The notes below the pieces were generated by a model. That model saw only the letters and a list, made by a program, of their open reading frames with translations, searched no databases and was not told where the DNA came from. A DNA stretch of 64,000 nucleotides, from positions 6,210,453 to 6,274,452 of the forward strand of contig NC_135571.1 in assembly GCF_964340395.1 (NCBI RefSeq), written 5' to 3'. Both the position numbers and the translations under genes were made by a program. This document shows, piece after piece, positions 12,250-22,985 of this stretch; the first letter of the stretch is position 1; each line of letters begins with the position of its first letter. The stretch is from Glandiceps talaboti. Lineage: Eukaryota; Hemichordata; Enteropneusta; Spengelidae.

Positions 12250-15200
12250 ATGAAGTTTTTCTTGGCTGTCTTTACGACAGCTTTGCTGTTCGTCTTGGCG
12301 GAGAACGCTCCACTTTCACGCAACAAGTTAGCTTCGTTGATCAAGTTAGTAAAAATGAACCGTACAGAAGTCCCCGTAATGTTCGTCCCTGAAGTGGAAT
12401 TGAAGAAAAGCAAATATGGAAACATGGTGTTCTTTACAGAGGCATCAGGTAAGGATAGTATCATACTATATCATTGTATATTTATGAGCCCATATTTGTA
12501 TATTAAATCGAATTAAATTAAGAAATCTTTTCGGCTTGTATAGTTGTTATATTTATCAAAACAAATATTATGGTCCTAATAAGGCCAAAAAAGAGAAGAG
12601 AATTGTTTCTGGTCAGCGCGCGCATCATTTAAATACTCTGGCATATGCATTTTTCTTTTCGTGTTTGTCCAGCCCATACAGTCTGCAGATCTGGGAGAAA
12701 TTCAAAAATAACACATTGCAGAGCCAATCATGAACAAGTAATTACACACTTGGTCTAAAGTACTGAATAAAAAGACCAGTAACTACAATAAATATATATA
12801 AGTAAATTGAGTGACAGGGTTTGTTTAGAATATATATATATTTACGTCGTCGAACCACTTTGTCCAGAATGTCCTGACCAGAAACAAATCTATTTTTTGG
12901 CCTAAGTAAACTCATAAACTCATTGAATTTTCCGTTTCGGAAACGTTGCATTATACTAGTGGCAGCTGTGTACTAAAAGGTCACGAGTGTTGTTCTAAAA
13001 TTCACATTTGGAATTTTAATTAAATTAAGCTGTTTTTTAAACGTCATGGCTTACTAATTATAGTAATTTAGAAAACATCTGAATAATGATAATCAACGAT
13101 GAATGGTCAATTCTAACACACATGACAAGTGTTAATTTTTTATTTACAGCCGTTACATATTTAATGAGGGAATTTACAACTTAATGAGGAAATTTGCATA
13201 TGTAATGAGGGAATATACATATGTAATGAGGGAACAATTAAATCATATGTATGGAGACGATCACACAATGTCGCACAAGCTCAACAAATTCGTTAGGGTC
13301 AAAACCTCCCCCATAAACAAACTCGCACAAGTGCGACATCAAACATTTATATATGATGTAAACTATGATGAAAACTGTCGCGGCATCAGCATCATATCTC
13401 ACATTACAAGTAATTTTATTCAACTTATCGACATCTCAGTAGTAAATACAAAACTGTTATCATTGAGGAGTGAAAGTTTTCCGTCGATATTTGGTTGAAA
13501 GTACAAAAAAATGAAGTTCAGCAATCGCACTGACGCCAGACCCCGTCATACCCTAACCGAACGAAGTTCGCTTACTGAGCTTGTCTGACATTGAGCGATC
13601 GTTCCTAATTTTTTAAATTTCCTATCTACGTTTCTTTCTGTCTCAATCAATCAATCAATCAATCAATCAATCAATCAATCAATCAATCAATCAATCAATC
13701 AATCAATCAATCAATCAATCAATCAATCAATCAATCAATCAATCAATCAATCAGTCTGCCTGTCTATTTGAATGTCTGTCTGTTCATCATCCTGTCTTTC
13801 TCCCTCTCCATCAATGTCTCCCTCGGCGTCTGTCTCTGTCTGGTTGTTCTCCTCTCCTTGCCTTTCTTTGCCTTTCTCTGTCTCGCCAACTCTGTATGTC
13901 TAACAATCTAAATTTTATCAGTCGTCTGATGATCGCTGAGGAAGCGTGAACCGCCGAATAATGACTTATAACATCCTTATTCTTCGGATTTCTCTCAAAT
14001 AAATTATATGTGTAATCAAATAAATTATTTTTGTCATGGTATGTGTTCTACACAATGCCAAACTTTTGTCCTGTTTTTCAGAATATATAAACGGTTTGTT
14101 TGACCAGTAACATTTGTTACAAAAACATACTTCCCAATTACATATTATCTATAATTTCACATTTGGTGGTAAACAAACGTTAAATGAACATAAAACAATA
14201 AGTGTACTAATTGACCCCAGATGCTACCACCCACTCCTGACTGCACCAACATCCAATGGATGTGTCACATAGTCAAACGTTTACGTAACAGAGCTATAGC
14301 AGAAAATGTTTGCAATCTTAATGAGTATCAACGTACGTATATACAGGTAAAACAACGAGGGATCGCCGAACGACATCGAGGGATCGCCGAACGACTGTGC
14401 ATATCATACACATTTTATGTTCCCTAAGAACAATTTAGATAGATAAGAAACAGGCTTCCCACAAACCACTCAGACCAGACATATAATTATAAATAAGGTC
14501 TAAAACAAAATAATTTTTGGTTCCGGTTACCCGATCCCCACCTAGTATTTCACTGCCGACCCTAAACTTTTTTTTACGTATTCGAGAAAAAGATAATAAA
14601 ATCGCAAAAAATTGTAAAGTTTCACGAGAAATATTGGATGCGGAAACTGACAATAATTTAAAAAGACAACATAAAACTGTTCTTCCAATCTGTATGGGCT
14701 GTACATCTGATAGGAAGAAATAAATAACAGAGAGATCATTTGGAAAGCAATAGAAAACCTGAACTAAACACTCACACATCACGAAAAAGAATATACTAAT
14801 ATAAAATAAAAATCTACCTACCCCCACCTATTCTAAAACTGAGCGTAATCGGATACACATAATTTTTTTATTAGGCGTAAGTGTACTGGGTTATGTAACA
14901 AAGATAATAATAATAATGATAATGATAATAATAATGATAATAATAATAATAATAACTTTATTTCCTACGAAAAACAAACAAAATAACAACAGCAACGACA
15001 GTGACAATTTCGTCCACTTCAATTGGACGTGTGACGACAATTGTAGGAAATGTAGCTAGAAATAGTCATTCATAGACTAATCGAGTCTAGCTACTCGAAA
15101 TACATGTATACTTAATCTGAAGATTACTATTTACACATATTTGCTGTTCTCATAACTTCGGAGGAAAAACAACTACAACAACAAGGAATGGTGTAAAGGA

Positions 15201-21200: not shown

Positions 21201-22985
21201 CATGATCACGAGGGACATGAACATGAAGATCATGATCATGCAGGACATGAACATGAAGATCATGATCATGAGGGACATGAACATCATGATCACGAGGGAC
21301 ATGAACATGAGGATCATGATCACGAGGGACATGAACATGAGGATCATGATCATGAGGGACATGAACATGAAGATCATGATCATGAGGGACATGAACATGA
21401 AGATCATGATCATGAGGGACATGAACATGAGGATCATGAGGGACATGAACATGAAGATCATGATCATGAGGGACATGAACATGAAGATCATGATCATGAG
21501 GGACATGAACATGAAGATCATGATCACGAGGGACATGAACATGAACATGAACATGAACATGAGGATCATGATCACGAGGGACATGAACACGAGGATCATG
21601 ATCACGAGGGACATGAACATGAGGATCATGATCATGAGGGACATGAACATGAACATCATGATCACGAGGGACATGAACATGAGGATCATGATCATGAGGG
21701 ACATGAACATGAGGATCATGATCACGAGGGACATGAACATGAAGATCATGATCACAAGGGACATGAACATGAGGATCATGATCACGAGGGACATGAACAT
21801 CATGATCACGAGGGACATGAACATGAAGATCATGATCATGAGGGACATGAACATGAAGATCATGATCACAAGGGACATGAACATGAGGATCATGATCATG
21901 AGGGACATGAACATGAGGATCATGATCACGAGGGACATGAACATGAAGATCATGATCATGAGGGACATGAACATGAAGATCATGATCACGAGGGACATGA
22001 ACATCATGATCACGGGGGACATGAACATGAGGATCATGATCATGAGGGACATGAACATGAGGATCATGATCACGAGGGACATGAACATGAAGATCATGAT
22101 CACAAGGGACATGAACATGAGGTTCATGATCACGAGGGACATGAACATGAAGATCATGATCATGAAGGACATGAACATGAAGATCATGATCATGAGGGAC
22201 ATGAACATGAGGATCATGATCATGAGGGACATGAACATGAAGATCATGATCACGAGGGACATGAACATCATGATCACGAGGGACATGAACATGAAGATCA
22301 TGATCATGAGGGACATGAACATGAAGATCATGATCACGAGGGACATGAACATCATGATCACGGGGGACATGAACATGAAGATCATGATCATGAGGGACAT
22401 GAACATGAAGTTCATGATCACGAGGGACATGAACATCATGATCACGATGGACATGAACATGAGGATCATGATCACGAGGGACATGAACATGAAGATCATG
22501 ATCATGAGGGACATGAACATGAAGATCATGATCATGAGGGACATGAACATGAGGATCATGATCACGAGGGACATGAACATGAGGATCATGATCACGAGGG
22601 ACATGAACATGAAGATCATGATCACGAGGGACATGAACATGAAGATCATGATCATGAGGGACATGAACATGAGGATCATGAGGGACATGAACATGAAGAT
22701 CATGATCACGAGGGACATGAACATGAAGATCATGATCATGAGGGACATGAACATGAAGATCATGATCATGAGGGACATGAACATGAAGATCATGATCACG
22801 AGGGACATGAACATGAACATGAACATGAACATGAGGATCATGATCATGAGGGACATGAACACGAGGATCATGAACATGAGGGACATGAACATGAGGATCA
22901 TGATCACGAGGGACATGAACATGAGGATCATGAACATGAAGGTCATTATCATGATGATCATGAACTTGAGGATCATGAATACTAG
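12250..22985 (+). CDS. Dickkopf-3-like secreted protein with a giant C-terminal His/Asp/Glu/Gly repeat, five exons
   Basis: The exons are 12250-12448, 15611-15780, 16585-16834, 17424-17565 and 18027-22985. Phases 1, 0, 1 and 2 agree at every GT-AG junction. Residues 1-18 are a signal peptide. Exon 2 resembles the soggy/N-terminal region of Dkk3 (VPSDYTESHADV...VVVNTTV). Residues 126-178 hold ten cysteines in the N-terminal Dkk pattern, with CTRDGQCC and CVLGHC close to Dkk3. Residues 190-264 hold the ten-cysteine colipase-fold domain (CNDGMCC, CPCQEGLTC). Dkk proteins are secreted; Dkk1/2/4 antagonise Wnt co-receptors, while Dkk3 acts divergently. From residue 273 the protein becomes HDHEGHEHED repeats, likely metal-binding. 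A 2-bp AT insertion at about 19131-19133 breaks the frame after some 350 repeat residues. Past it, in the restored frame, the array is open to TAG at 22983-22985, about 1900 aa in total. Uncorrected, the frame continues as Met/Ile-rich sequence to 23202. Confidence 0.8.
13636..13753. repeat. AATC tetranucleotide microsatellite in intron 1 of the Dickkopf-3-like gene
   Basis: Nearly perfect (CAAT)n for about 110 bp, followed by TCTG/TCTC-rich sequence. Confidence 0.95.
14221..15610. other. Rest of intron 1: short repeats, no exon supported
   Basis: A tandem GGGATCGCCGAACGAC pair lies at about 14359-14394. An imperfect (TAA)n/(TAATGA)n run lies at 14905-14956, followed by CTTTATTTCCTACG. A 64-codon basic ORF at 15205-15399 resembles nothing I recognise and has no splice support. 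The TAA run may be the tail of an old minus-strand retroelement. Confidence 0.35.
15834..16168. repeat. Tetranucleotide-rich tracts in intron 2 (GAAT, GAAC, GAGT, TGTC)
   Basis: Consecutive runs of ATGA, GAAC, GATC, GAGT and GGAT are followed by CCAG and TCTG runs at 16115-16165. Confidence 0.9.
16966..17285. repeat. AGAC then GACT/GATT microsatellites in intron 3
   Basis: (ACAG)n at 16966-17010 is followed by (TGAC)n and (TGAT)n with single-base variants to about 17284. Confidence 0.9.
17680..17890. repeat. ACAT microsatellite with a GCAT core in intron 4
   Basis: (ACAT)n flanks a pure (GCAT)n core at about 17741-17778, with ACAG variants at the 3' end. Confidence 0.95.
18128..22960 (+). 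repeat. 30-bp coding minisatellite (HDHEGHEHED), about 160 units with higher-order structure
   Basis: The unit is CATGATCACGAGGGACATGAA followed by CATGAGGAT, with C/T and A/G wobble variants at synonymous positions and scattered 24-bp and 18-bp short units. All length variants except the AT insertion at 19131 are multiples of three. Distinctive variants recur at long range: the ACACGAGGATCACGATCAT block near 19959 recurs 810 bp later near 20769. The fourfold GAACAT run near 21538 recurs about 1272 bp later. Large segments of the array have therefore been duplicated. Confidence 0.9.

Follow-up and report, generated by a model that had tools for sequence, protein, structure and literature searches.

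The question raised by this locus of the hemichordate Glandiceps talaboti is whether a secreted protein of the Dickkopf-3 (Dkk3) type continues into a giant array of histidine, aspartate and glutamate (H/D/E) residues, and how much of that array is read together with the rest of the protein. The sequence studied (C26:6210453-6274452, contig NC_135571.1; hereafter the window) is the whole stretch of 64,000 nucleotides that was analyzed, and the genome searched comprises 590 Mb in 47 contigs. Judging from its sequence, the gene in the window is a real Dkk3-like gene, one of two in this animal, and its last exon enters the array. The Dkk module shares its reading frame with just about 35 copies of the repeat, because two extra bases are present at positions 19132-19133.

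The gene model consists of five exons, with splice borders, phases and cysteines read from the translated window; all features of the gene and array given below are on the plus strand. As originally predicted, the five exons have consistent phases, with GT/AG borders throughout, and exons 1-4 are open. Exon 1 (12250..12448) contains the start codon, a hydrophobic start (MKFFLAVFTTALLFVLAENA) judged by eye to be signal-peptide-like and the N-terminal region, ending at the donor CAG/GTAAGG. Exon 2 (15611..15780) precedes the first cysteine domain and shows weak soggy-like similarity; about 100 cysteine-free residues separate the hydrophobic start from domain 1. Exon 3 (16585..16834; 250 nt) encodes ten-cysteine domain 1 together with cysteines 1-4 of domain 2, exon 4 (17424..17565; 142 nt) encodes cysteines 5-9 of the latter, and the in-frame H/D/E part of exon 5 (18027..19131) supplies its tenth cysteine (residue 264) followed by 342 array residues, so that exons 3-4 contain 19 of the 20 cysteines and exon 5 contributes the one remaining, ahead of the frame break. 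The link between exon 4 and the array, formed by this cysteine and about 26 codons that do not belong to the regular repeat, keeps the frame and contains no stop. Since the tenth cysteine is encoded in exon 5, skipping of this exon would break domain 2 and is an unlikely route round the array. No convincing donor for an intron within the array was noticed on inspection by eye, no splice program being applied. A candidate poly(A) signal, the sequence motif AATAAA, is located at 23432..23437.

The presence of two ten-cysteine Dkk3-like domains was confirmed by the cysteine count (ten in residues 126-178 and ten in residues 190-264), by Pfam, in which Dickkopf_N was matched above its cut-off (E=1.1e-9), and by BLAST, which gave 94 bits to human DKK3 (over 188 residues) vs 36 bits to DKK1, neither human sequence being taken from a database. 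Prokineticin and Colipase_C were also matched in Pfam, below their cut-offs. The search of the spliced module against Dkk families that had been proposed with the original prediction recovered, in addition to Dickkopf_N, solved chains of Dkk1, Dkk2 and Dkk4: domain 2 matched colipase, Bv8 prokineticin, Dkk1 and Dkk2 (E 6e-5 to 0.0015; 0.0003-0.0015 for the Dkk1 and Dkk2 chains) and domain 1 matched a Dkk4 chain (E=0.0085). The interdomain linker (C178-C190) has 11 residues, short as in the Dkk3 subfamily; Dkk1 has a long one. A tree of six sequences grouped the window protein with the second Dkk3-like protein of this animal and DKK3, with a support of only 60 for the split, and the local score of the soggy-like region before domain 1 was equalled by 41 of 1000 shuffles, the similarity being clearer by eye in the second protein. 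The C223-C241 spacing, counted by hand, amounts to 17 residues here and 18 in the second protein; the human sequences used for comparison have 23 (DKK3) and 16 (DKK1). Domain 2 of human Dkk3 is reported to carry a seven-residue insertion (PMC10606412); it is absent here and was not treated as defining.

The array downstream of this module was delimited by Tandem Repeats Finder as 165 copies of a 30-bp unit at 18118-22993. Among 161 GGACA anchors, 159 of the 160 intervening gaps are multiples of three and one measures 62 bases; these lengths alone prove little, because a 6-base sub-period preserves the frame by itself. The exception corresponds to the two extra bases at 19132..19133, where the frame changes, and the following 60 bases contain several more substitutions, as seen by eye. 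The in-frame array of 342 residues is composed of 38% H, 30% E, 19% D and 10% G, and GGA codons number 35 in 18028-19131 and 126 in the H/D/E frame after the break. As assembled, the gene continues through 19132..23202 as 1356 residues rich in Met, Ile, Arg, Asn and Asp (Met 33%, Ile 20%, Arg 13%), arranged in MNMKIMITRD-type repeats and closed by a stop at 23200-23202, which gives a total product of 1978 residues. The H/D/E frame itself runs on at 19134..22985 for 1283 stop-free codons (to 22982), up to a TAG at 22983. It then decays (22983..23264), with TAG 22983, TAA 23070, TAG 23109 and TAG 23121 followed by an open end that extends to TAG 23262. Within the array a higher-order duplication with an 810-base offset (19831/20641, 19995/20805 and 20136/20946) spans 19831..21092. 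The statement that the module runs directly into some 160 copies of HDHEGHEHED thus stands for the array, which has about 165 copies in the same last exon, and fails for the reading frame: the assembled sequence does not encode some 160 copies as one uninterrupted array, because the frame shifts at 19132-19133, and the "giant" H/D/E tract is reduced to 342 residues, vs about 1600.

A second Dkk3-like gene was found on the same contig, 3 Mb off (C26:3.19 Mb), which shares 44% identity with the window gene over 84 residues that comprise domain 1 and the first part of domain 2. This sister matches the window gene in the length of exon 3 (250 nt) and of exon 4 (142 nt). Its exon 5 has the same starting phase and contains the last cysteine; the acidic tail that it encodes is intact, spans 443 residues and includes 151 D/E and 1 H. 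A candidate first exon (C26:3181912-3182122) ends at a donor in the same phase as that of exon 1 in the window. As exon 5 encodes the tail in both genes, the array occupies the place of the sister's long acidic tail. The generalization that the acidic tail of known Dkk3 proteins is short therefore fails in this genome. The sister tail (C26:3188032-3189400) contains, by eye, a long imperfect internal repeat (DEEWFEEA.NGDGFQMTDTD ... NDIYQNEL.NLYEENTE), so the tails of both Dkk3-like genes may grow through repeats; no sequence similarity is claimed between the window array and the sister tail. The open end of the window gene (23124-23261) was considered as a homolog of the Dkk3 tail and dropped, since its scores were not significant against the human tail (equalled by 134 of 1000 and 185 of 2000 shuffles), the whole human DKK3 (328 of 1000) or the sister tail (1856 of 2000 and 1630 of 2000). 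Homology was not shown between the human DKK3 and sister tails either (210 of 2000 shuffles).

Based on these data, it can be proposed that a 30-bp minisatellite, coding for HDHEGHEHED, took the place of a long acidic tail in the last exon or overgrew it, that the H/D/E frame was translated across most of the array until recently, and that the two-base change would be a young mutation, a single allele or an assembly error within the repeat. Taken as a whole, this reading is favored tentatively, as a nearly even prospect. It draws on the variation among array copies, which was counted on 135 units of exactly 30 bases, the other 25 of the 160 being left out. In the H frame, 29 synonymous vs 10 nonsynonymous variant copies were counted before the break (32 units) and 101 vs 15 after it (103 units); read in the Met frame, the same variants after the break amount to 4 synonymous vs 112 nonsynonymous copies. 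Variants present in more than three copies after the break comprise 4 of 5 synonymous types vs 0 of 10 nonsynonymous ones (Fisher p=0.0037). Codons for residues other than H, D, E and G are not enriched past the break (21 of 1283 vs 9 of 337 ahead of it; p=0.25), and stops occur only from 22983 on (4 of 16 such codons vs 0 of 21 in 19134-22982; p=0.028). Variation among copies thus suggests, without proving it, that the H frame was under constraint both before and after the break.

Several points weigh against recent translation of the whole array. The H/D/E frame past 19134 is not joined to the gene as assembled, which leaves the bulk of the array outside the H frame, and four stops separate this frame from the last open stretch. 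The test on common variants is not significant for the part before the break taken alone (p=0.13), and synonymous types number 5 of 15 after the break vs 4.1 expected, and 5 of 13 vs 2.3 before it. The synonymous excess is inflated, because the copies are related by duplication, including the 810-base blocks, and are not independent. The comparison of stops includes the TAG that defines its own border; without this TAG it yields 3 of 15 vs 0 of 21 (p=0.064), or p=0.032 when all 30 such codons of both parts serve for comparison. Made against the part before the break alone, the comparison of stops gave p=0.26; as array edges are often more diverged, the stops found there could follow from that.

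The same data can be read as evidence that the frame change is real and old, so that the gene would produce a Dkk3-like module with 342 H/D/E residues followed by 1356 Met-rich cationic residues, or would undergo early degradation, with the remaining array drifting. This explanation, possible though rather unlikely, accommodates the four stops found late in the H frame, the further substitutions seen by eye in the unit at the break and an assembled open reading frame (ORF) that reaches 23200 within the last exon; nonsense decay is not expected to act on such a transcript, since by the usual rule a stop codon in the last exon does not elicit it. Against it stand the Met frame past the break, whose 112 nonsynonymous copies show no sign of constraint, and constraint on the H frame that is no lower past the break than before. 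Location of the frame change and stops in the last exon, together with the existence of a sister with an intact tail, would also agree with the whole gene being a decaying duplicate, a pseudogene, with the sister Dkk3 gene doing the work, but exons 1-4 are open, the splice borders are intact and all 20 cysteines precede the break, which makes decay of the whole gene improbable.

That the array is a noncoding minisatellite beside a shorter gene, its open frames being an accident of a CATGA-type repeat, is a slim possibility. Long stretches are indeed open on the reverse strand and in two of the three forward frames, and the 6-base sub-period maintains the frame on slippage; however, exon 4 is connected to the array by the tenth cysteine and the non-repeat codons, with the frame kept and no stop, and the sister exon is open and acidic at the same place. 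Since the His/acid and Met-rich frames are both open for more than 1000 codons past the break, a two-way coding switch was also considered, in which non-triplet length changes would toggle the Dkk3 tail between His/acid and Met-rich blocks among alleles. Such toggling appears very remote, and it is just as far-fetched that the tail would thereby alternate between a Cu(II)/Zn-type polymer and a Cu(I)-type or self-coacervating one; the computed charge of the Met-rich block is +118 over 1356 residues.

In the favored reading, that of an acidic tail converted into an H/D/E array, the tail would be a disordered polymer, rich in histidine and strongly acidic, able to bind divalent metals or to shift its charge with pH, metal binding being presumably weak and distributed over many sites. 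The computed charge of the in-frame array changes from -164 at pH 8.1 to -17 at pH 5, and this shift, together with the histidine content, suggests a disordered polymer with weak multi-site metal binding and a response to pH. Rather than adding a new signaling domain, the tail may slow the spread of the Dkk3 module and hold it in the extracellular matrix.

Among known systems, the closest are the Dkk3 orthologs of deuterostomes, which share the two ten-cysteine domains and the short linker, the C-terminal end of the sister being acidic; the window gene differs from them in having an H/D/E array for an acidic tail and in lacking the seven-residue insertion of human domain 2. Histidine-rich glycoprotein, calcium/zinc-binding His-rich proteins and ZrgA share with the array tracts rich in His, Asp and Glu, a likeness of composition only, and the match of bacterial ZrgA to the window protein is weak (E=5.4, below its cut-off). 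The copper-binding end of human CTR1, in which a His-rich stretch precedes a Met-rich one, resembles the assembled frame in this order of stretches, although the Met frame here shows no constraint. Among the papers listed by the literature searches, judged from titles and abstract openings, none described a Dkk protein carrying a histidine array. In the genome, a 70-residue array query gave 105 matches, and no H/D/E array alike was found among the 150 of 268 candidates scored, so the absence of further arrays is not proven. The best match outside the window among scored candidates (E=1.6e-4, 30% identity) contains a stop, and the most alike (49% identity, E=0.016) is located on contig C5. On the minus strand of the same contig (L036, C5:27794284-27795306) a repeat reads ELHDIELHDTELHD in one frame and is stop-filled in a second, being probably a satellite.

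Regarding other members of the family, a genome scan with Dickkopf_N returned four places (11 candidates, all scored), and a search with the window protein gave nine matches in nine candidates, distributed over the window gene and three other Dkk genes; no further copy of the window protein was detected in the genome. Besides the sister, these are a gene on C24 that resembles the DKK1 sequence used here (48% identity over 81 residues of domain 2) and a gene on C5 (L032, C5:22156390-22159181) of a third type with a different first domain. The latter perhaps corresponds to the group called dkk5 in PMC11414264, which reports dkk1/2/4, dkk3 and a third group in hemichordates and cephalochordates. 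Loss of dkk3 in ecdysozoans and lophotrochozoans is held in an earlier paper (PMC6425005), and the two sources disagree over what protostomes retained.

Other features of the window include a second His/Asp array gene upstream (5883-9574, plus strand), with a signal-like first exon (MRVSIVLCLTTLLLFWANS...) and an HDDHDH array of 15-bp period. This array is also broken: it meets TAA at 8695-8697 and shifts frame by one base near 8769, after which the H/D frame reopens up to TGA 9572. Its first exon weakly resembles that of the Dkk3-like gene, with a score equalled by 25 of 2000 shuffles. In the 40 kb flank, the Dkk protein, the open end, the upstream first exon and the array were all without match at E<=1, and Rfam gave no match at gathering score in the whole window. 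A cluster of related ORFs occupies about six places on both strands at 44786-60516, four of them of 417-445 residues; a scan of two of these ORFs gave weak ATP-grasp matches, below cut-off, for one and no match for the other. Long tetranucleotide microsatellites are numerous (7512, 13643, 17675, 25178, 34686 and 37533).

This locus is a warning that frame changes can stay hidden when long repeats within exons are read by eye. With respect to the biology of the family, Dkk3 modulates Wnt signaling in sea urchin through a mechanism called unclear in PMC12550998; human Dkk3 does not conserve the residues with which Dkk1 contacts LRP6, according to PMC6078440, and an in silico study cited in PMC10606412 predicts Dkk3 binding nonetheless. 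If the H/D/E tail is made, one of the two copies of a Wnt modulator would have acquired a polymer tail that may be sensitive to metals or pH, and the acidic-tailed sister would provide a natural comparison within the same animal.

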